Below, piece by piece: positions 1 to 20,597 of a stretch of 29,249 nt of DNA. How positions within the stretch are numbered: position 1 is the stretch's first letter; each line of letters starts with the position of its first letter. The notes under the pieces were generated by a model. That model was not told the origin of the DNA. It did not search any database and saw nothing but the letters and a program-made list of their open reading frames with translations. The stretch is from a virus, in the IMG/VR virus record IMGVR_UViG_3300047377_000264, positions 1-29,249 of that record. One strand, 5' to 3'. The position numbers and the translations under genes are program-made.

Positions 1-247
1 AAGACATTGTCGGTGCGATGGTATCGAGTAACTCCGAGAGTGGGATTACTGTTACTTACCAAGATGCAGACGGGACTCTCGACTTCAGTGTTGCTTCTCA
101 GACTGATCAGAACTTTACCAATGCCGATCACACTAAACTCAACAGTATTGAAACTAGTGCTGATGTCACTGACACGACTAATGTCGTAGCGGCTTTAACG
201 GCTGGTTCTAATGTTAGTATTGCCTCTGACGGAACTATCTCCGCTAC
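1..247 (+). repeat. 282-bp fibre repeat, copy A (partial)
   Basis: Bases 1-247 match bases 1552 onward and 1834 onward almost base for base. The match starts at AAGACATTGTCGGTGCGATG and ends near ATCTCCGCTAC. It encodes the segment from DIVGAM to about NGTISAT. The copy is cut by the window edge. Confidence 0.9.
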
Positions 248-3200
248 AGACACTAACACCAACACAACCTATTCTGCTGGATCTGGGTTGTCGTTAAGTA
301 GCACTACCTTTAGCCACTCAGATACTTCATCCCAAGGATCGGTAAACAATAGTAGCGGCACGGTGATTCAAGATATTACTCTTGATACTTATGGTCATAT
401 CACTTCGCTCGGCAGCACTAATTTAGATAGTCGTTACTATACTGAGACTGAAGCCGCAAACCACTTCAAGTCGTTAGTGGTGCAAGGTAACTTCATGAAC
501 ACATATTCGTGGTCAGGAGATACTGTTGGAAGTGCAAACAATGGTTGGTCTGATTTCGGATCTACTGCACCATTTAGTGGGACGGGCAGCTACGGTCAAA
601 ATGGAACTGATGCGGAAAACAGTAGAGCCGTAGAAACTTTGCCGAACGGGGCAAAAGGTGTGGTGTGGCAAACACCATCTAATGATTCCGCCAGTGGAGC
701 AGATGGGGGTTGGAACTGCACCATCAATGGAGTTGATTCTACCAAAGCATACAGATCAGTTATTTACTTTAGACGGACTGACGATTCAACTAGTGGAACT
801 TTTTATCACGGTTGTGCTGGTAGCCACACGTTAAATACAGATGGAACCACCAATACTAACCCATACTTTAAATCTCAGAGTTACAGTAGTTTCGTCCAAG
901 ATAGGTGGTATGTGTCTATAGGTTACATCCAGCCATATCAGGCATCAGGCACTACTAATAGTGTTAGGGGAGGTATCTACGACTGCACAACAGGTAAAAA
1001 AGTTTTTGCTTCAACCGACTTCATGATGAAGAACGGTTCTACTTCTCAGCAACATAGAACTTACTTATATTACAGCACTGACACATCTACCTCTATAGAT
1101 TTCTATGGGCCACGTTTTGAAGAAGTAAATGGTAATGAACCTTCAACTCAAGAGCTTGTAAACAAAGGTATAGATGGATTAGCTGCTATGTCTTTCCATA
1201 GCAAGTATGACCCAGAAGCTCTAAGTCAGTTAACTGAGTCGAGTGATGCTAACGATGATAAGTTCTTACTTTGGGATGAGTCTGCTTCTGAGTGGAAATA
1301 CATGAGGTTGGATGACCTCCAAGATAGTATTGATAATAACACCACCTATTCTGTAGGGGACGGTGGTTTAACTCAAAAGAACTTCACTACTACACTGAAG
1401 TCTAAGCTAGATGGTATCGAAGCTTCTGCTGATGTCACGGACACGACGAATGTCGTAGCTGCTTTAACCGCTGGCTCTAATGTTAGTATTACTTCTGGTG
1501 GAACTATCTCCGCTACAAATACGAACACTCAACTTTCTAACGAGCAAGTTCAAGACATTGTCGGTGCGATGGTATCGAGTAACTCCGAGAGTGGGATTAC
1601 TGTTACTTACCAAGATGCAGACGGGACTCTCGACTTCAGTGTTGCTTCTCAGACTGATCAGAACTTTACCAATGCCGACCATACTAAACTGAATAGTATT
1701 GAAACTAGTGCGGATGTAACTGACACGACAAATGTCGTAGCGGCATTAACGGCTGGTTCTAATGTTAGTATTGCTAGTAACGGAACTATCTCCGCTACCA
1801 ATACGAACACTCAACTTTCTAACGAGCAAGTTCAAGACATTGTCGGTGCGATGGTATCGAGTAACTCCGAGAGTGGGATTACTGTTACTTACCAAGATGC
1901 AGACGGGACACTTGATTTCAGTGTTGCTTCTCAGACTGATCAGAACTTTACCAATGCCGATCATACTAAACTGAATGGTATTGAGACTGGCGCAGACGTA
2001 ACTGACACGACAAATGTCGTAGCGGCTTTAACGGCTGGTTCTAATGTTAGTATTGCTAGTAACGGAACTATCTCCTCTACAAACACGAATACAACATATT
2101 CTGCTGGAACTGGGATCTCGTTAAGCGGAACTACGTTTTCTCTTACGGATACAGCTTCTAAGCTATCACTATCTGGTGGCACACTAACAGGAACTCTCAC
2201 TGCGAGAGATGTCAAGATAGGTAGCGATTACCATCTACAACGCTCCAACCACCATTCGGGTCACCTTGAAGGTTCCTACAATAATGTTGGTGCAAATGGC
2301 AGTAAGAGTAATCCAATTTATACAATTGGTTCAAGCTACAATCCTACAGATGCTGCTCTAAGCAATATGTATGGGATAGGCTATAGCCACACAGATGCTT
2401 CCTTCATTAGTATGACCGGAGCTTCTGGTTGGGGTATGTATGTTGCAGCCGATGGGGACGCGAGGGTTTTTCTTGGTGGATCTAATGGTGTTATATCTTC
2501 TACAGGAGAACACTATGTTGGCTCTAGTAGGGTGTTCCATGATACTTACCATCCAAATGCAGATACGCTCACTACTGCAAGAACAATTGCATTAGGTGGA
2601 GATGTTACTGGTAGTGCTAGTTTTAACGGCGGTTCAAATATTACGATATCTGCATCACTCGCGTCTGGTTCAGTCGGAGCAAGTGAAATTGCAGCTAATG
2701 CAGTTGGATCAAGTGAGATCGCCACTAACGCAGTTACTTCAGCCAAAATCGCGGCTGACGCAGTTGGGGCAAGTGAGATCGCAGCTAACGCAGTTGGTGC
2801 TAGTGAACTTAATGTAAGTGGAAATGGAAGCACATCTCAGTTCTTGAGAAGTGATGGTGATGGCACATTTACATGGGCAACTCCAACAGATACGAACACT
2901 AACACAACCTACTCCGCTGGTAGGGGATTAGATCTTAGTGGAACTGAATTCCAATTAGAGACTGATCTCAGAGATAGTATTAGTTATATTGGTTACGATA
3001 GTAATGATTACATTCAGTGGTCCAATAACAGTTCTGTTAGAGCGGTAGTCGCGGGGACACAAAGACTTATTGTCGGCACTTCTGGTATTGATGTTACAGG
3101 AAATGCTACTGCTGACACTTTTAGAACTGACACTAATAATGTTAATTATAATTTATTTACACGGAACCATAGTAGTAGCACCCTATATGTTCAAGCGGCT

Positions 3201-3494
3201 CAATCGAATAGCATACAAGGCATCGCTTCATTTAGGTATGGTAGCACCGCAGCAGCACAAGGAACTGAGGTTTGTGCTATAAGAAGGAACTCAAGCTACT
3301 TTATTAACACTAAATTAGGTGTGGGGACAAACAACCCCTCATCGACCCTAGATGTTTCTGGAACGGTTAAAAGTTCTGGTGATGTTGAAGTGACATCCTC
3401 TAGTGCGGGTGTAATATTGAAAGCTCCTAATGGATATAAATGGCGCGTTACCGTAAATAATAGTGGCATGATTACCACAACTAATGTTTCCTAA
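1..3494 (+). CDS. Tail fibre / receptor-binding protein (5' partial)
   Basis: The reading frame is open at the left edge (first full codon at base 3). The first bases match the middle of an internal repeat, so the true start lies upstream. At least 1164 residues are visible. They are rich in Ser, Thr, Asn and Gly, with very little Cys, as is typical of trimeric beta-rich phage fibres. Order: one repeat copy (bases 1-247); a unique domain rich in Trp and Tyr (about 470-1200) that may be a carbohydrate-binding beta-sandwich; one partial and two full repeat copies (about 1390-2082); a second unique part; a block of VGASEIAANA-like decapeptides (2667-2810); and a C-terminal part with the GVGTNNPSSTLDVSG-type sequence common near fibre ends. 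Motifs such as ADVTDTTNV and NTTYSAG also recur in fibre proteins. It probably binds the host surface; the receptor cannot be inferred. Confidence 0.82.
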   Translation, partial: DIVGAMVSSNSESGITVTYQDADGTLDFSVASQTDQNFTNADHTKLNSIETSADVTDTTNVVAALTAGSNVSIASDGTISATDTNTNTTYSAGSGLSLSSTTFSHSDTSSQGSVNNSSGTVIQDITLDTYGHITSLGSTNLDSRYYTETEAANHFKSLVVQGNFMNTYSWSGDTVGSANNGWSDFGSTAPFSGTGSYGQNGTDAENSRAVETLPNGAKGVVWQTPSNDSASGADGGWNCTINGVDSTKAYRSVIYFRRTDDSTSGTFYHGCAGSHTLNTDGTTNTNPYFKSQSYSSFVQDRWYVSIGYIQPYQASGTTNSVRGGIYDCTTGKKVFASTDFMMKNGSTSQQHRTYLYYSTDTSTSIDFYGPRFEEVNGNEPSTQELVNKGIDGLAAMSFHSKYDPEALSQLTESSDANDDKFLLWDESASEWKYMRLDDLQDSIDNNTTYSVGDGGLTQKNFTTTLKSKLDGIEASADVTDTTNVVAALTAGSNVSITSGGTISATNTNTQLSNEQVQDIVGAMVSSNSESGITVTYQDADGTLDFSVASQTDQNFTNADHTKLNSIETSADVTDTTNVVAALTAGSNVSIASNGTISATNTNTQLSNEQVQDIVGAMVSSNSESGITVTYQDADGTLDFSVASQTDQNFTNADHTKLNGIETGADVTDTTNVVAALTAGSNVSIASNGTISSTNTNTTYSAGTGISLSGTTFSLTDTASKLSLSGGTLTGTLTARDVKIGSDYHLQRSNHHSGHLEGSYNNVGANGSKSNPIYTIGSSYNPTDAALSNMYGIGYSHTDASFISMTGASGWGMYVAADGDARVFLGGSNGVISSTGEHYVGSSRVFHDTYHPNADTLTTARTIALGGDVTGSASFNGGSNITISASLASGSVGASEIAANAVGSSEIATNAVTSAKIAADAVGASEIAANAVGASELNVSGNGSTSQFLRSDGDGTFTWATPTDTNTNTTYSAGRGLDLSGTEFQLETDLRDSISYIGYDSNDYIQWSNNSSVRAVVAGTQRLIVGTSGIDVTGNATADTFRTDTNNVNYNLFTRNHSSSTLYVQAAQSNSIQGIASFRYGSTAAAQGTEVCAIRRNSSYFINTKLGVGTNNPSSTLDVSGTVKSSGDVEVTSSSAGVILKAPNGYKWRVTVNNSGMITTTNVS
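1552..2082 (+). repeat. Tandem 282-bp fibre repeats, copies B and C
   Basis: Copy B covers 1552-1833. Copy C starts at 1834, exactly 282 bases (94 codons) later, and stays nearly identical until about 2082. A half copy precedes B (about 1420-1551). The identity holds at synonymous positions, which points to recent duplication or ongoing recombination rather than selection on protein sequence alone. Confidence 0.9.
2667..2810 (+). repeat. 30-bp (10-residue) repeats in the fibre gene
   Basis: Five 10-residue units follow each other: GSVGASEIAA, NAVGSSEIAT, NAVTSAKIAA, DAVGASEIAA, then a shorter NAVGASEL. The units differ at many codon third positions, so this repeat is older than the 282-bp one. 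Such Ala/Ile/Val-spaced repeats are common in the shafts of phage fibres, where they probably form trimeric helical or beta segments. Confidence 0.8.
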
Positions 3495-4169: not shown

Positions 4170-5446
4170 TGCCCATACAGAGGAATCAACCCAGCCCTCA
4201 GAGGCAGACAGTCCTCACATTCGTATCTCCGAATGTGCAGGATTTATTGTTCTTTGAAACAATAGATGCTCAGAGGGTTGGGAAGAAACCTCCTGCATAT
4301 GGAACTCCGCACCCTGACACTGTAAACTTTCCTGATCACACTTTAGCGTATGTAAAACAGGCTGATCCTAATGGTCAGTTTTATTATTACTATTATGCAA
4401 ACACGAGGACTTCTCAGGATGATTATAACTTTGAGTATGCTCAATCTAGCTTAGGTCAGACCAAGTTTGATACTGTAGTAAGGACATACATAAGCTTACG
4501 TTCTTCGTTTACAGAAGACGATAGCACGGTGGTAGCGGGTTCTCCGATGCCTACCGCCCCCGCTGCGGCTAATTTTTCGGGGAAAGGTTATGTTCTAATG
4601 GGTCGCCAACAGAAAAGAATTGGTGATCGTGAGCTAGACGGGATCTTTGTTGTAGAGCAAAGAACTTATTTTGTTAGGGCGACTATCGAGACTCTCAAGT
4701 GGGACGACCTCTCCCACCGAAATCTCAAAAGCGCCTTAAAGTATTACTACACGGGAGAAATACCAACTGGTCAACCTACGGGGCAAACCAAAACAATTGA
4801 TGAACTTATACTAGACCCCGATAATGATTGGTGGAAAACGACATTAATAACCCACGATGCAGAGTCTAATTTAAAAGTTGCTGCTTACAGAGAAGGGAGA
4901 CAGATATCCACTGATTGGTATGAAGTTGTAAAGCAAGAAACAATCGCTGGTGTGGGGTCGGGTAACACGATTCTAGTGGATGAGTATTTTACCAGCATGG
5001 ATCACACGTTCCCGCCTGTTTTAGAGAGTATAAATGTTATTGGTTACGAGCGACATGATGGACAGGTTTTGGCTTTCCCTGAGTATCACATGAACCCCGA
5101 AGCATATCGAGGTCCATGTAAGACTAAAGTAACCGTTCAGTATTCGACCACTAAGTTTACTGGGGTAGAAGCAAAAGCAATGGTCCCACAATCATTCACT
5201 TTTGGAACTCCCTACGTTCGTATTTCCGTTCCGCCATGTCTAATGAATGGTGGTTTTGTTAGATGCACAACTGGAACGGTAGATCCAGTTTACAAATACA
5301 CCATATACAATAAACAGTTACCTGTAACTACTCCACCTAATTTAAATCAAATAGCTTCTACAGGACTTGTTGCTAGAGACAAACAAGAACCTTCTAGGGG
5401 TGGTTATGTGAGAACTACTTGGACGGTATTCCCACCCCAATTTTAG
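4169..5446 (+). CDS. Putative virion structural protein of the tail region (425 aa)
   Basis: The ATG overlaps the preceding stop. The protein is soluble and beta-rich, with many aromatic residues (a run of five Tyr near residue 73) and Pro-rich termini. There is no membrane segment or catalytic motif I can name. Its size, composition and place between fibre genes and the 757-residue surface protein suggest a tail, baseplate or fibre-connector component. This is inference from context. No family assignment is made. Confidence 0.7.
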   Translation: MPIQRNQPSPQRQTVLTFVSPNVQDLLFFETIDAQRVGKKPPAYGTPHPDTVNFPDHTLAYVKQADPNGQFYYYYYANTRTSQDDYNFEYAQSSLGQTKFDTVVRTYISLRSSFTEDDSTVVAGSPMPTAPAAANFSGKGYVLMGRQQKRIGDRELDGIFVVEQRTYFVRATIETLKWDDLSHRNLKSALKYYYTGEIPTGQPTGQTKTIDELILDPDNDWWKTTLITHDAESNLKVAAYREGRQISTDWYEVVKQETIAGVGSGNTILVDEYFTSMDHTFPPVLESINVIGYERHDGQVLAFPEYHMNPEAYRGPCKTKVTVQYSTTKFTGVEAKAMVPQSFTFGTPYVRISVPPCLMNGGFVRCTTGTVDPVYKYTIYNKQLPVTTPPNLNQIASTGLVARDKQEPSRGGYVRTTWTVFPPQF

Positions 5447-5448
5447 TG

Positions 5449-7722
5449 ATGGCTAGAGAAGGATTTTTTCAAAAGATAAAGAGCTTTCTCTTTGGGGAAA
5501 GCGAAGAAGCTATCAATGAGTTCTCACAACCAGAAGAAGCTGACGTTTCTATTCAAGATGCTGAGATTTCAGAGATTCCTTCTTTTAAGTTTTCTCCAAC
5601 GACAGAAGGAACATCAGATGCCCCCGCTGAATTTTATACTCATAGAGTAGATGTGGGTAGGGAAGCGCCCCCTATTCCCGAACAATATCGTGTAGAACAC
5701 GAACCTTACAGATACGAACCAGACGGTGATAAGAGGGTGTGTATTTCAAAAGCACACTTATACGAGATGCACCCTAAAAACGGAACTTGTGTTGAGCTGC
5801 ACGAGTTAGAACCTTTAAAAATAAAAGCGGATCGGGAGTGTGTTATCTATTCAGAATTCAATACTGACGAGCAGGGAAAAGTAATCGCAGACCCCGATAA
5901 TCCAGATGGTGCGTTGTATAGATTAGCGAAGAGTAAGGAGTTACCGGATTCTACTCAGTTTGAACTACCAGATGAAAGTGGATATAATGGTAAAGAAGGA
6001 AAATACGCCGTCCCTATTGTTTGGGTAAAAGATGGAAAGCTTTATCGTCACCAGTGGAACGAAGAGACGGATGGCAGAGAGGCTAGATTGTATGGGGGTC
6101 TAGAAGGAATTAGGGGTCCACTCCATTGGCATAGGGGCTATAATAAAATAAAAAACTTAGGGGGCGGTAAAAATGTTTACAAGAAATATGTCCGAGATGG
6201 CAAAGATGAAAAAGAATTTAGGAGTATAAATGAACGGGGGCAGGAGGGTCTTTCATCTCCATTTACAGGAGAGGCTCAAGTAAAAGTAAAGTATAACGCT
6301 GCTCAAGCAGATGCCTCTGAAATTCATGTCACGGGAAATGAATTCAACAAGCATTGGAAAATAGATGGTAAGGGTGTTGCGGTTGTCGAAGACGGACTCG
6401 TTACCTGTTTAAATGACCTTACTTGTGTAGAGCTTAACAAGACTACTGTTCTGTCTGCTGCATCAGGAACTACTACTGTTTTAACGGCAGGATCTACAAC
6501 TTCTGTAGCGCAAGCGCCCACTGCTACTAACTTCACTGCGGTCTTGACTAGTTCGGGAACGGTCACTGTAGCCTTGGAACCTCAACCTAGCAACATGGCT
6601 ACTGTCGTGTCGGCTGGGGCAGTAACCACTGCCGCCGCTCCAGTTACAGCAGGGAATTTAGACACTGTTGTCGGGGTTGTGGATGTGACGTATACAACTA
6701 CTGCAGCGCCCGTCACAACAGGTAATTTTACTTCAGTCTCTGGGGTGGCTACAACCACAACTGTAGCGGCTGGTGTTACAACGGGTAACATGACTTCCGT
6801 AATTGCTTCTTCTGGAACTACAACGGTCGCTTCCGCTGTTACAACGGGTAACATGACTTCCGTAATTGCTTCTTCTGGAACTACAACGGTCGCTTCCGCT
6901 GTTACATCTGGTAACATGGCTTCCGTTCTATCTTCCTCTTCGACCACACCTGTTGCATTGGCTCCAGATTCGACAACCGACATGGTAACGGATGTTTGGC
7001 GTGGTGGGGCAGCTACTACGGCTGGTGGGATGTCTATCGTGAAAGTCGCAGCTTGTGGTAACACAGGGGGAGAAGATGACGTTTGTTATTGGGTGATGGG
7101 GGTTATCGCGCAGGGGGCATTTGAAAACTCACCTCCCACATTCCCGTCCTTAATTACAGGAGCTACCACTACGAGTGTTGTTAAATCACTAAGCACCACT
7201 AATGTTGTTGATGCGGGGAGTCCTGTAAGTGTGGTGCAATCTGTCCCAACAACAGATGTCATCAGTGCGGGGAGTCCTGTAAGTGTGGTGCAATCTGTCC
7301 CAACAACAGATGTCATCAGTGCAGGAAGTCCAGTAAGCGTGGTGCAATCTGTCCCAACAACTACGGTTCTTAATTCGACAACTCCTGTAGATGTTGTGCA
7401 ATCTATCCCAACACACTCACTTGCTTATCAAGTAGCCCTTGAGCCTAGTTTGACCGTTGTTACTTCCACTACAGGAGTAAGTGTGCTTTCTTCCAGTTCA
7501 ACAGTATCTGTTGTAGCTAGTTTGCCTACTTCTGAAGTCGCTACGGCAGGAAGCACTGTCAATGTAATAAAAGACTTGAATCCTGTGGATGTGGTCACCT
7601 CAACGAATACTGCGGCAGTTTTAACGACAGGAACAACTGTAGAAGTTTACGCCCCAACGGGAAGTCTTAGTGAACCAATTAAGGTGGTTGAATGCCCCAC
7701 AAGTAACTTGTGTCCAGAATAG
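5449..7722 (+). CDS. Repeat-rich putative tail appendage or surface protein (757 aa)
   Basis: The ATG at 5449 lies just after the previous stop (TAG, 5444-5446). A TTG at 5419 would extend it by ten residues into the previous gene and is less likely. Residues 1-30 may form an amphipathic helix (GFFQKIKSFLFG). Residues 30-330 are a charged, mixed domain with Cys and Tyr. From about residue 330 on, the protein turns into Thr/Val/Ser/Ala-rich beta repeats, including a 21-residue unit (from residue 443) and an 18-residue unit (from residue 589). This looks like an extended beta-solenoid or shaft. A short non-repeat insert with two Cys (CGNTGGEDDVCYW) separates the two repeat families. Its position suggests an adhesin, spike or fibre. 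No enzymatic motif is visible. Confidence 0.72.
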   Translation: MAREGFFQKIKSFLFGESEEAINEFSQPEEADVSIQDAEISEIPSFKFSPTTEGTSDAPAEFYTHRVDVGREAPPIPEQYRVEHEPYRYEPDGDKRVCISKAHLYEMHPKNGTCVELHELEPLKIKADRECVIYSEFNTDEQGKVIADPDNPDGALYRLAKSKELPDSTQFELPDESGYNGKEGKYAVPIVWVKDGKLYRHQWNEETDGREARLYGGLEGIRGPLHWHRGYNKIKNLGGGKNVYKKYVRDGKDEKEFRSINERGQEGLSSPFTGEAQVKVKYNAAQADASEIHVTGNEFNKHWKIDGKGVAVVEDGLVTCLNDLTCVELNKTTVLSAASGTTTVLTAGSTTSVAQAPTATNFTAVLTSSGTVTVALEPQPSNMATVVSAGAVTTAAAPVTAGNLDTVVGVVDVTYTTTAAPVTTGNFTSVSGVATTTTVAAGVTTGNMTSVIASSGTTTVASAVTTGNMTSVIASSGTTTVASAVTSGNMASVLSSSSTTPVALAPDSTTDMVTDVWRGGAATTAGGMSIVKVAACGNTGGEDDVCYWVMGVIAQGAFENSPPTFPSLITGATTTSVVKSLSTTNVVDAGSPVSVVQSVPTTDVISAGSPVSVVQSVPTTDVISAGSPVSVVQSVPTTTVLNSTTPVDVVQSIPTHSLAYQVALEPSLTVVTSTTGVSVLSSSSTVSVVASLPTSEVATAGSTVNVIKDLNPVDVVTSTNTAAVLTTGTTVEVYAPTGSLSEPIKVVECPTSNLCPE
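6775..6929 (+). repeat. 63-bp direct repeat (21-residue unit)
   Basis: Bases 6775-6837 are repeated without visible difference at 6838-6900, starting at GTTACAACGGGTAACATGAC. A diverged partial third copy begins at 6901 (GTTACATCTGGTAACATGGC). The length is a multiple of three, so the repeat changes fibre length without breaking the frame. Confidence 0.9.
7213..7374 (+). repeat. 54-bp tandem repeat, three units (18 residues each)
   Basis: The units start at 7213, 7267 and 7321 and encode AGSPVSVVQSVPTTDVIS. The first two are nearly identical in DNA. The third differs at a few bases and diverges at its end. A further relative with VVQSIPT follows near 7390. Confidence 0.9.
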
Positions 7723-8728: not shown

Positions 8729-8905
8729 ATGATTAACTACATTTTAGAAAACCGAGACAGTCTTATTTCCGTTGCCACTGCTGTGGTGGCAGCAGCCTCT
8801 GCAATTTGTGCTTTAACTCCCACTCCTAAAGACGATGGGCTTGTGAGAAAGCTCTATATCATCCTTGAATGGGCGGCGTTAAATATCGGAAAAGCGAAGA
8901 AATAA
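8729..8905 (+). CDS. Small membrane protein at the head of the lysis cassette (58 aa)
   Basis: The ATG lies three bases after the previous stop. One hydrophobic Ala/Val-rich segment covers residues 12-29 (LISVATAVVAAASAICAL). A TPTPKDDG turn and an amphipathic C-terminal helix ending GKAKK follow. Proteins with this layout are common next to phage lysis genes. It may be a holin or a holin regulator, but I cannot assign that. It is separated from the next gene by one base. Confidence 0.65.
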   Translation: MINYILENRDSLISVATAVVAAASAICALTPTPKDDGLVRKLYIILEWAALNIGKAKK

Positions 8906-8906
8906 A

Positions 8907-9089
8907 ATGATCAGGGCAATTGCTGCCGCATTAGAGGCTTATGTTCTATACATAAAACTAAAGCACCGAAGATATGTTTACGAACTGGAAGATGAGATTG
9001 ATGAGCTTGCTGCCGATGGTAGCCCTGCTGCAAAGTTGCGGCTGGAGCGGGTTGCGAAACGACTCCACCGTGAACTCAAGCGCACTTAA
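8907..9089 (+). CDS. Small coiled-coil protein, possible inner-membrane spanin (60 aa)
   Basis: A short hydrophobic N-terminal helix (residues 2-18, with one Glu) is followed by a charged helix with a heptad-like pattern (YVYELEDEIDELAADG, then AAKLRLERVAKRL). A short transmembrane start, a coiled coil and a lipoprotein gene overlapping in another frame resemble the Rz/Rz1 arrangement. At 60 residues it is much shorter than a typical Rz (about 150), so the role is tentative. It shares 116 bases with the next gene. Confidence 0.6.
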   Translation: MIRAIAAALEAYVLYIKLKHRRYVYELEDEIDELAADGSPAAKLRLERVAKRLHRELKRT

Positions 9090-9222
9090 TGACCCCCCAA
9101 CAATTACGTTGATCGAGGGGGAAACATACCAGTTTTGTGAGGGTAGTTTAGTTGGTAGAGAAGATCACAAATTCCACAGTGATTACAGTTATCGAAGGGC
9201 AATTATTATAGGGAGCAAATGA
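8974..9222 (+). CDS. Putative outer-membrane lipoprotein (o-spanin / Rz1-like), nested start (82 aa)
   Basis: Read in the +1 frame relative to the 8907 gene and starting inside it. The N-terminus has basic residues (Lys6, Arg8), a hydrophobic run (LMSLLPMVALL) and Cys22 in the context LLQSC. This resembles a lipobox, although Gln at -2 is not the consensus choice. The mature part has a Pro pair and a conserved-looking end (HSDYSYRRAIIIGSK). Other possible starts are ATG 8992 and ATG 9001, which leave a tighter signal peptide. The stop overlaps the next start as ATGA (9219-9222). If it is an o-spanin, it would bridge to the inner-membrane partner to break the outer membrane at lysis. Confidence 0.65.
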   Translation: MFTNWKMRLMSLLPMVALLQSCGWSGLRNDSTVNSSALNDPPTITLIEGETYQFCEGSLVGREDHKFHSDYSYRRAIIIGSK

Positions 9223-9497
9223 TTAAGGGTTTTTTAAAGGCAATAGAGGATGGAGTCGCTAGTTTAAACTTCGACCCCGAAGGGGGCGGTTATGACTATG
9301 CCACTGCAAAAGCGCATGGCTTAACAAAAGATAAGGACGGTCATTGGCCTAGCAGGAGTCCTAAAACGGGGCAAATACTGAAAGGACGAAAACATAAAAC
9401 GTGGAAGGAAACAGAAGAGGGGGAGGCAAAGGCAAAATACGTTATCTTTAAAGACCCCAAAAGAGGGGGTAAATATTTTTCAAAAAAAAGAGAATGA
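9219..9497 (+). CDS. Conserved-type small phage protein of unknown function (92 aa)
   Basis: The ATG overlaps the previous stop and has GGGAG six bases upstream, one of the few good ribosome-binding sites here. The protein is basic and polar, with a GGGYDYATAKAHGLTKDKDGHW stretch (22 residues shown in part: YDYATAKAHG and GHWPSRSPKTG), a KGRKHKTW motif and KYFSK at the end. I recall similar small proteins in many podovirus-like genomes, often near lysis or neck genes, without a known job. There is no membrane segment. Its stop overlaps the next start as ATGA (9494-9497). Confidence 0.68.
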   Translation: MIKGFLKAIEDGVASLNFDPEGGGYDYATAKAHGLTKDKDGHWPSRSPKTGQILKGRKHKTWKETEEGEAKAKYVIFKDPKRGGKYFSKKRE

Positions 9498-9661
9498 ACT
9501 CTTCTAAACTAATCGACACCCTTTTAGGGACTTTAACACCAACCATAGCCGTAGCCGCATCTATGCAAGAGCAAATGGAGTATTGGCTCCGTGTAATATC
9601 TTTAATACTGGGTATCGCAGTAGCTGCGGTATCCCTCTATAGATTGATTTTTAAGAAATGA
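9494..9661 (+). CDS. Holin candidate, single-span membrane protein (55 aa)
   Basis: An amphipathic or weakly hydrophobic N-terminal half (LIDTLLGTLTPTIAVAAS) leads to one clear transmembrane helix, about residues 31-50 (WLRVISLILGIAVAAVSLYR), and a basic end (FKK). It is immediately upstream of, and overlaps (ATGA), the amidase gene, the usual place for a holin. Holins are too diverse for sequence proof. The other small membrane gene at 8729 is the alternative. Confidence 0.6.
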   Translation: MNSSKLIDTLLGTLTPTIAVAASMQEQMEYWLRVISLILGIAVAAVSLYRLIFKK

Positions 9662-10206
9662 TAGGGCTGGCAATAGGACACTCAAGGAGGGGGGACTCCG
9701 GCGCTTACACAGTTGGTAAGCCCAGCGTTAGTGAACACACGTTCAACACCGAATTGATTTCGTTAATTATACCGAAACTAAAAGTTCCGTATAAAATATA
9801 CGACGACTACAAAGCGTCTAGTTATGTTGGGGCGATGAATTATGTATCGCGAAAAATGAGGGAGGACGGTATAGATGCGTGTATAGAACTCCATTTTAAT
9901 TCTGCTGGGCCAAAAGCAACCGGACATGAATGGTTATATTGGGAGACTAGTAGAGGTGGAAAAAAATTAGCTTTGAAATTGAAGGAAGCAATGGACGAAG
10001 CGTATCCTGATTTAGCGTCTCGCGGGGTCAAAGCAAGGGGCAAGGGATCAAGAGGTGCTATGTTTCTCCGTAAGACTCCTTGCTATGCTTGTATCGCGGA
10101 GCCGTTCTTTGGATCTAGTCAATCTGATGTGGATCTAATACAATCAGATTTAGATAAGTTAGCCTCAGTTTATGCCGAAGGAATAAATACATTCTATGAA
10201 AAATGA
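9658..10206 (+). CDS. N-acetylmuramoyl-L-alanine amidase (Amidase_3-like endolysin)
   Basis: This is the phage endolysin: it would cleave the amide bond between MurNAc and the stem peptide in the periplasm. The whole 182 residues look like one catalytic domain, with no signal peptide and no cell-wall-binding domain. Zinc ligands by family pattern are His8 (AIGHSRRG), Glu26 (SVSEHTFN) and His79 (ELHFNS). The catalytic Glu is Glu148 (IAEPFFGS). All four are present. Lacking a signal, it should depend on a holin; the 9494 gene is the nearest candidate. The start overlaps the holin stop, and the stop overlaps the next start (ATGA). Confidence 0.88.
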   Translation: MIGLAIGHSRRGDSGAYTVGKPSVSEHTFNTELISLIIPKLKVPYKIYDDYKASSYVGAMNYVSRKMREDGIDACIELHFNSAGPKATGHEWLYWETSRGGKKLALKLKEAMDEAYPDLASRGVKARGKGSRGAMFLRKTPCYACIAEPFFGSSQSDVDLIQSDLDKLASVYAEGINTFYEK

Positions 10207-18780: not shown

Positions 18781-18798
18781 TTTTTTCTGTTCTATTGT
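18770..18798 (+). promoter_or_regulatory. Candidate promoter for the large terminase gene
   Basis: TTGATA (18770-18775), a 17-base spacer and TATTGT (18793-18798) lie 11 bases before the ATG at 18810. The -35 element is inside the start of the divergent HTH gene. A protein bound here, for example the HTH protein itself, could affect both directions. Confidence 0.4.
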
Positions 18799-18809
18799 TT
18801 TTAATAATT

Positions 18810-20597
18810 ATGGCTTTAAAAGAACAAAGGAGCAAGCAGTTACTCGAACCCAGAATTGATCCGGCTAGTAAGAAAATGGACGTTGGGGGTTTTCAGCTTC
18901 CTCCCACTAGTCTAATAACCGCACTTCTTTACGGGTTCGCTAACCATGAATCGGTTGTTGCTAAAGAATATTACTTTTGGAGGATCTGCGATGAGTTGTG
19001 GAATCACGATGAATTGCCAGACAAACTATGCGTTCGCCACCCTTGGGCGGAAATGATGATTAAAGCAGCACTCGAAAACAAATACCTCGCGATTGGAGGG
19101 AGTGCTTCGTCAGGAAAATCTCATATTATGGCTGCTTGGGGAATCGTAAATTGGTTGTCCCAACCTCAAGACACGCTTGTTCTTATGACTTCGACCACGC
19201 TTCGTGAAGCTCGAAAACGAATCTGGGGTAGTGTGATGTCTCTCCTAACCGTGATTGAGGGCGCACCAATCAAGATACGCGATTCAATTGGAAGTGCCTC
19301 TTACGTTAATGAGAAAGGAACACTCATTGAGAGGGCGGGGTTGTCTTTGATCTCAGCGGAGAAGAGTAAAACTAAAGAAGCTGTTGGCAAATTCATTGGT
19401 TTAAAACAAGCGAGGGTGATCCTTATCGGAGACGAATTATCAGAATTGTCAGAAGCTATTTTGAACGCTGGTCTCACAAACCTGTCTAAAAACCCCTCAT
19501 TCCAGATGATCGGGATGAGTAACCCCAACTCAAGATTTGATGCGTTTGGAATATGGTCCACTCCAAAAGACGGTTGGGATAGTGTCGATACAAATACTGC
19601 CGACGAATGGGAAACAAAATGGCATGGCAAATACATTCGACTAGATGGCGAGAGATCACCAAACATTATAGCTGGAGAGGTTATATATCCGTGGCTCCCC
19701 ACCCAAGAAAAACTTGACGAAGATAAGGCGCTATTGGGGGTTGAGAGTCGGGGGTATATGCGAATGGTTCGGGCAGTATTTTTTGATAGCGACGAAACCA
19801 CTGGCATCTACACAGAAAATGAACTGACTTCTAGTGGTGCTTTGAATAAAGTGAACTGGCAGGGAAACACCGTAAATCTAGCGGGTCTGGACCCGAGCTT
19901 CACCAATGGGGGTGATCGAACGTGTCTAGCTTTAGCTAAATGTGGGTATGACACTACTGGTCAGTATGTTATAGAGTTTGGAAAAATCATTCATTTAAAT
20001 GACGATGCCACAAATAAAGCCGTTCCACGAACCTATCAAATCGTTGAGCAAGTCCAGAAAGAATGTAAGAAGCACGGTGTGCTACCAGAGAATTTAAGCG
20101 TGGATGCCACGGGTGCTGGAGCGCCTTTCTGTGATGTGCTTGCTGGACAGTGGTCAAACAAATTTATGAGGATTTCTTTTGGCGGAAAGGCTAGTGACAA
20201 GCGTGTTAGCGCAAATAGCTCTAAAGTCGGGACTGATTTGTATGTCAATCGTGTGTCGGAGCTATGGTTTGTGGGAAAAGAATTGATGCGAACCAAACAA
20301 ATCTTTGGGATTGAGTCGGAACTAGCTCAAGAAATGACATCAAGAAACTACGACATGGTGAAGAGTGGGAGTCTCCGAATGAAGATTGAATCTAAACCGG
20401 AGTTCAAAGCTCGCTTCGGAAGGAGTCCAGACCTCGCTGACGCAGCGTTTCTTGCCCTAGATTGTGCTAGGCAGCGGCTTGGTTTAGTTGCGGTTGATCC
20501 CCCTGATACATCAAATTCTGTAATGCCTCACCGGAGGACTACTATAAAAAACTTAAGTAGTGCTTTGCAGAACAGTGAGACTACCCTCATTGATTGA
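18810..20597 (+). CDS. terL: Large terminase subunit (TerL)
   Basis: 595 residues from the ATG at 18810; a TTG at 18795 adds five residues and is less likely. The ATPase part has Walker A GGSASSGKS (96-104), Walker B VILIGDE (203-209) and a coupling-type MIGMSNPNS (233-241). The C-terminal nuclease has an RNase H-like acidic set: Asp361 (LAGLDPSF), Asp432 (LSVDATG), and Asp541/Asp544 (SPDLADAAF). The protein cuts concatemeric DNA and drives it into proheads. It opens the rightward late block and diverges from the small-terminase candidate. The start is preceded by TTTTTAATAATT with no Shine-Dalgarno sequence. Confidence 0.93.
   Translation: MALKEQRSKQLLEPRIDPASKKMDVGGFQLPPTSLITALLYGFANHESVVAKEYYFWRICDELWNHDELPDKLCVRHPWAEMMIKAALENKYLAIGGSASSGKSHIMAAWGIVNWLSQPQDTLVLMTSTTLREARKRIWGSVMSLLTVIEGAPIKIRDSIGSASYVNEKGTLIERAGLSLISAEKSKTKEAVGKFIGLKQARVILIGDELSELSEAILNAGLTNLSKNPSFQMIGMSNPNSRFDAFGIWSTPKDGWDSVDTNTADEWETKWHGKYIRLDGERSPNIIAGEVIYPWLPTQEKLDEDKALLGVESRGYMRMVRAVFFDSDETTGIYTENELTSSGALNKVNWQGNTVNLAGLDPSFTNGGDRTCLALAKCGYDTTGQYVIEFGKIIHLNDDATNKAVPRTYQIVEQVQKECKKHGVLPENLSVDATGAGAPFCDVLAGQWSNKFMRISFGGKASDKRVSANSSKVGTDLYVNRVSELWFVGKELMRTKQIFGIESELAQEMTSRNYDMVKSGSLRMKIESKPEFKARFGRSPDLADAAFLALDCARQRLGLVAVDPPDTSNSVMPHRRTTIKNLSSALQNSETTLID

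Follow-up and report, generated by a model that had tools for sequence, protein, structure and literature searches.

An overlapping lipoprotein gene pair beside the endolysin gene of an uncultured marine phage from IMG/VR is probably a two-component spanin

The window analyzed here is the complete stretch of 29,249 nucleotides of the IMG/VR virus record IMGVR_UViG_3300047377_000264. The features relevant to this report, with the basis for each in brackets, are:

8729..8905, + strand: H58, a 58-residue membrane protein and holin-like candidate (phrog_9685, E=3.4e-13; hydrophobic segment)
8907..9089, + strand: I60, first partner and i-spanin candidate (kept in 101 distinct loci)
8974..9222, + strand: O82, overlapping lipoprotein and o-spanin candidate (in frame, together with I60, in every fetched locus; codon tests)
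8974..9036, + strand: O82 signal peptide of 21 residues, which ends with LLQS and is coded inside I60 (sequence)
9037..9039, + strand: codon of the O82 lipobox Cys, Cys22 (Cys in all testable loci but one)
9091..9213, + strand: conserved C-terminal domain of O82, coded outside the overlap (alignment)
9219..9497, + strand: g92, a 92-residue basic protein (homolog also after the pair in Ayaqvirus S45C18)
9494..9661, + strand: h55, a 55-residue protein and second holin-like candidate (C-terminal hydrophobic segment, dG19 0.5)
9658..10206, + strand: endolysin, an N-acetylmuramoyl-L-alanine amidase of the Amidase_3 type (PF01520, E=1e-11; phrog_435 endolysin, E=1.6e-30)

The first gene of the pair encodes the 60-residue protein MIRAIAAALEAYVLYIKLKHRRYVYELEDEIDELAADGSPAAKLRLERVAKRLHRELKRT, and the 82-residue lipoprotein is read in the +1 frame relative to it. 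An earlier note, made from the sequence alone, had reported that two frames are used over 116 bases, one of them encoding a signal peptide with LLQSC, and had proposed an Rz/Rz1-like spanin pair. Both ORFs, the overlap of 116 bases, and the lipobox are indeed present. The lipoprotein gene had also been described as nested. This had to be revised: O82 starts inside I60 and continues for 133 bases beyond it, and the arrangement is therefore overlapped rather than nested.

IMG/VR scans returned 269 candidate stretches with a relative of O82 and 98 with a relative of I60, and the 80 best of each set were retained. Both genes are present in all 157 loci fetched from these sets, and both frames could be read in 101 distinct loci. 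All of the 82 distinct homologous nucleotide sequences keep the O82 frame open from its start onward (four had been scored as closed under a fixed window, in which a stop sits just before the O82 start), and the third forward frame is open in none. Upon synonymous recoding of I60, the O82 frame remained open in a mean of 2.6% of the trials, and 0.06% combined an open frame with a lipobox-like Cys. Changes at wobble sites, counted on the tree, are less frequent inside the overlap than outside for I60 (9.1 vs. 15.9 per site, p 8e-5) as well as for O82 (5.0 vs. 18.1 per site, p 6e-12). Protein-level selection therefore acts on both frames.

The start codon of O82 differs between relatives. Most close relatives use the ATG equivalent to position 8980, one locus (L081) combines this ATG with another at 8974, and the phage analyzed here, together with one further locus (L001), has ATG at 8974 and ACG at 8980. 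The changes at both positions are silent in I60. The start has thus been shifted by two codons through paired silent changes (gain of ATG at 8974, loss of ATG at 8980), and its position relative to the lipobox is −21 here and −19 in most relatives. This swap preserves the translatability of O82 and counts in favor of a spanin pair. In one locus (L054, 6-329), a deletion near the contig start fuses the two frames into a single ORF (VKLFFQLL...DALAA-AVLPLTSCGWN...), which may be natural or an assembly error.

The O82 frame might be suspected to be open by coincidence, with an equally fortuitous lipobox, since it is short, lies partly inside another gene, and has no database match. Such an explanation is refuted, and we assign it practically no probability: all 82 distinct sequences have the frame open (P about 0.026 for each independent recoding), both frames show wobble constraint, the O82 domain is conserved past the overlap, and the start codon has been swapped. 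A frame broken in close relatives or a loss of its Cys, which the earlier note had considered fatal to its proposal, was not encountered, apart from the single Cys replacement described below.

The Cys of the lipobox LLQSC is retained in all testable loci except one (L152, 48-326), where Phe replaces it (LLPSF) and the other family features are intact. The residue which follows this Cys is Gly in O82 and is never Asp among its relatives; Gly rather than Asp fits an outer-membrane location. The C-terminal domain, with the alignment motif DPPTxTLxxGxxYxFxEGxLxGR...KFHSDYSYRRAIIIG, is predicted to form beta strands with moderate confidence (pLDDT about 80 in part). For an o-spanin, the mature domain shows unusually strong conservation and little proline, which counts against the spanin reading. 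O82 of this phage has a further cysteine, Cys55, but neither partner has a Cys outside the lipobox in 76 of 96 loci; at least one periplasmic Cys has been reported for 507 of 528 published spanin pairs. O82 ends with YRRAIIIGSK and has no C-terminal hydrophobic stretch long enough for a transmembrane domain (TMD), by which a unimolecular spanin is ruled out.

I60 consists of a weakly hydrophobic amphipathic N-terminal helix, followed by a charged helical hairpin. Its invariant residues are E28, D29, D32, L34, G38, K43, L44, R48, R52, and E56. AlphaFold2 models two helices (2-37 and 40-59, pLDDT 92), which form a self-contained hairpin. The membrane-anchored coiled coil postulated in the earlier note was not recovered, as there is no convincing TMD in I60: its best 19-residue window contains 4 charged residues and has a crude insertion energy (dG19, from Hessa scale values without position weighting) of 8.7, compared to −2.5 for lambda Rz, 0.7 for the first partner of DFL12phi1, and 4.7 for T7 18.5. 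One K/R residue precedes the hydrophobic stretch and four follow it, which by the positive-inside rule favors a cytoplasmic C-terminus. I60 thus fits poorly to the textbook rule for i-spanins. However, the first partners encoded next to the phrog_8971-like lipoproteins of UAB_Phi78, Aeromonas phage Tola, and Vibrio phage 236O40-1 have 61-69 residues and dG19 values of 5.0-10.1, and that from Tola is labeled 'transmembrane helix containing' in its record. Because the SP6-like first partners are equally weak anchors, this trait, which I60 shares with a recognized spanin subtype, does not exclude I60 as an i-spanin.

Searches of I60 and O82 against PHROG, Pfam, NCBIfam, and GenBank phage sequences gave no significant match, so that neither frame could be connected to a known spanin family, although the definition of a two-component spanin does not demand such homology. 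O82 has a weak match to the Rz-like spanin family phrog_1275, which was rejected because it is confined to the signal peptide. PDB profile searches found nothing, a structure search with the I60 hairpin returned only non-specific helical matches, and the O82 model was too uncertain for such a search. The two proteins are a new sequence family, but other phages provide precedents for their arrangement and small size. A tblastn search with the terminase-like protein of the window (18795-20597; phrog_2, E=1.7e-10) at a cutoff of 1e-5 found no match among 50,697 GenBank phage records, and the phage group has no close named relative among them. Seven matches to genome contigs were dismissed as a guide to the host, as these are MAG-binned contigs from unrelated phyla and likely misbinned viral sequences; no host was assigned. 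Two long ORFs of the window (18-3494 and 5443-7722) are rich in internal repeats (ESGITVTYQDADGTLDFSV... and TSVIASSGTTTVASAVTTGNM..., respectively), and the former matches the tail fibre families phrog_6162 and phrog_11011.

The pair is located in a lysis cassette, a common but not obligatory place for a two-component spanin, with transmembrane protein genes adjoining and the amidase gene downstream. All 98 testable loci have a homolog of this Amidase_3 gene 3' of the pair, at a distance of about 0.2-1.9 kb (the other three of the 101 loci are on contigs which stop 52-279 bases after O82). H58 has one strong hydrophobic segment (dG19 0.1) and belongs to phrog_9685, which carries no assigned function; it is likely a holin-like lysis gene. 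The assignment of h55 as a holin-like candidate is based on its hydrophobic segment and a weak match to the holin family phrog_565 (E=0.11). The g92 gene is optional, being present in few close relatives of this phage and absent from most; g92 (9219-9497) and another locus (L159, 4570-4842) have the motif GHWPSRxPKxGxILKGRKHKT in common, and it occupies the same place in Ayaqvirus.

As H58 could be used as an independent probe, the DNA downstream of its homologs was inspected in 69 distinct loci, each with at least 400 nt available. An out-of-frame lipoprotein is encoded within 400 nt 3' of the H58 homolog in 60 of these, with an expectation of 0.016 per slot in the rest of the same DNA; most of the 60 pairs fall into two families and are thus not 60 independent events. 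At least four unrelated kinds of pairs can be distinguished. One is the I60/O82 type, which has a distant member in L222 (E=6e-5 for the first partner, E=0.016 for the lipoprotein), a potential bridging locus for which no further relatives were found. Another is the Ayaqvirus type (AP013544), where the pair is followed by a g92 homolog, and a third is represented by L217 and L224. In the fourth kind (L209, L245, L251), the lipoproteins match phrog_8971, a family of Rz-like spanins (E 4e-10 to 2e-12), and the first partners match phrog_9219; the lipoprotein of L251 shares about 50% identity with the UAB_Phi78 Rz-like spanin. The H58 family, with the motif TPTPKDD...LALNxGKAK, is a marker of overlapping lipoprotein pairs in a range of unrelated phages (8729-8905; L173-L252).

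Because of the gene architecture, the position in a lysis cassette, and the recognized Rz-like spanins by which this slot is filled in unrelated phages, we consider it likely that I60 and O82 form an overlapped two-component spanin which completes lysis by disrupting the outer membrane. The spanin-like reading of the earlier note is thus well supported, but the membrane-anchored coiled coil and the minimal size are not borne out. After export, O82 would be cut and presumably lipidated at Cys22; it would then be attached to the periplasmic side of the outer membrane, from which its conserved C-terminal domain would extend into the periplasm. The N-terminal helix of I60 may keep this partner at the inner membrane, where its helical hairpin would be available to O82. 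Before the pair acts, the holin-like protein would open the inner membrane and the amidase would remove the wall; I60 and O82 may then make contact and draw the membranes together until the outer membrane fails.

Lack of a family match, the weak TMD and wrong-side charges of I60, its self-contained hairpin, and the mostly absent periplasmic cysteines all speak against a spanin. Several of these points would be accommodated if only O82, alone or with another partner, were lytic at the outer membrane and I60 were a peripheral or cytoplasmic hairpin which regulates H58 or h55 (timing, antiholin-like). The weak anchor, the charge distribution, the confident soluble hairpin model, and the proximity of the transmembrane protein H58 in many loci agree with such a role, which we nevertheless regard as unlikely: the first partners of the SP6-like and related pairs are equally weak anchors (dG19 5.0-10.1 vs. 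8.7), and the genes for I60 and O82 co-occur in every fetched locus. Even less probable is an outer-membrane lipoprotein with another function, e.g., superinfection exclusion as by T5 Llp, whose gene overlaps an unrelated one. In its favor one could cite the strong conservation of the mature O82 domain, the tail genes close by, and the general lack of Cys for a disulfide linkage. Against it, a protein that blocks varied receptors should diverge, the endolysin is linked to the pair in 98 of 98 testable loci, and recognized spanins hold the same slot in other phages.

The reading as a spanin provides a likely function for two orphan protein families which are common in uncultured marine phages. 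It also provides a practical marker, as the H58 gene predicts an adjacent overlapping lipoprotein pair that is usually unannotated. More speculatively, and with rather low confidence, I60/O82 might belong to a widespread spanin class in which the first partner is an amphipathic helical hairpin without TMD or disulfide linkage that reaches the lipoprotein after H58 has opened the membrane, or is anchored by H58. If the weak-anchor trait is true, it questions the TMD requirement for i-spanins, a criterion by which phages are called spanin-less.

The closest counterparts in organization are the SP6-like pairs (o-spanin phrog_8971, first partner phrog_9219), among them that of UAB_Phi78, which is listed with overlapped spanins (Kongari et al., 2018; PMC6139136). 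As in I60/O82, the first partner is small (69 residues in UAB_Phi78) and has a short, weak N-terminal hydrophobic helix, the lipoprotein gene starts inside it in another frame, and the pair adjoins a small transmembrane protein and the endolysin; related pairs are found directly 3' of H58 homologs in viral contigs. In contrast, there is no sequence similarity, and O82 has its own KFHSDYSYRRAIIIG domain. The 69-residue ORF of UAB_Phi78 (L308, 1728-1937), which overlaps the annotated Rz-like spanin and is itself unannotated in NC_020414, is, we infer, the i-spanin meant by Kongari et al. Ayaqvirus S45C18 (AP013544.1) has the same gene order, with an H58 homolog, a first partner lacking a clear TMD and an out-of-frame lipoprotein, and a g92 homolog. 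It differs in that the sequences are unrelated, the 73-residue lipoprotein (LMSGC; phrog_456 Rz-like spanin, E=0.01) is encoded wholly inside the gene for the 104-residue first partner, and the amidase is encoded elsewhere in the genome.

The spanins of DFL12phi1, a marine member of the Schitoviridae, also overlap by 116 bases (PMC6139136), but their first partner has a clear TMD. A profile search ruled out kinship with I60/O82; the identical length of the overlap seems coincidental. The earlier note suggested that I60/O82 might be a minimal spanin, with an inner partner far smaller than known Rz proteins. We dropped this view because published spanins reach down to 62 periplasmic residues (range 62 to 300; PMC6139136), compared to roughly 40 + 61, about 100 in total, for I60/O82, and because the first partners of SP6-like and related pairs have only 61-69 residues; the pair is small but does not set a new minimum. 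A total of 143 i-spanin and 125 o-spanin families are known, many of them singletons (PMC6139136). Lambda Rz/Rz1 and T7 18.5/18.7 likewise use one stretch of DNA in two frames beside lysis genes, with a lipoprotein as second partner. Lambda Rz and T7 18.5 are much longer than I60 (153 and 143 vs. 60 residues), and lambda Rz also differs from I60 by its clear N-terminal TMD, its long periplasmic coiled coil, and its cysteines.
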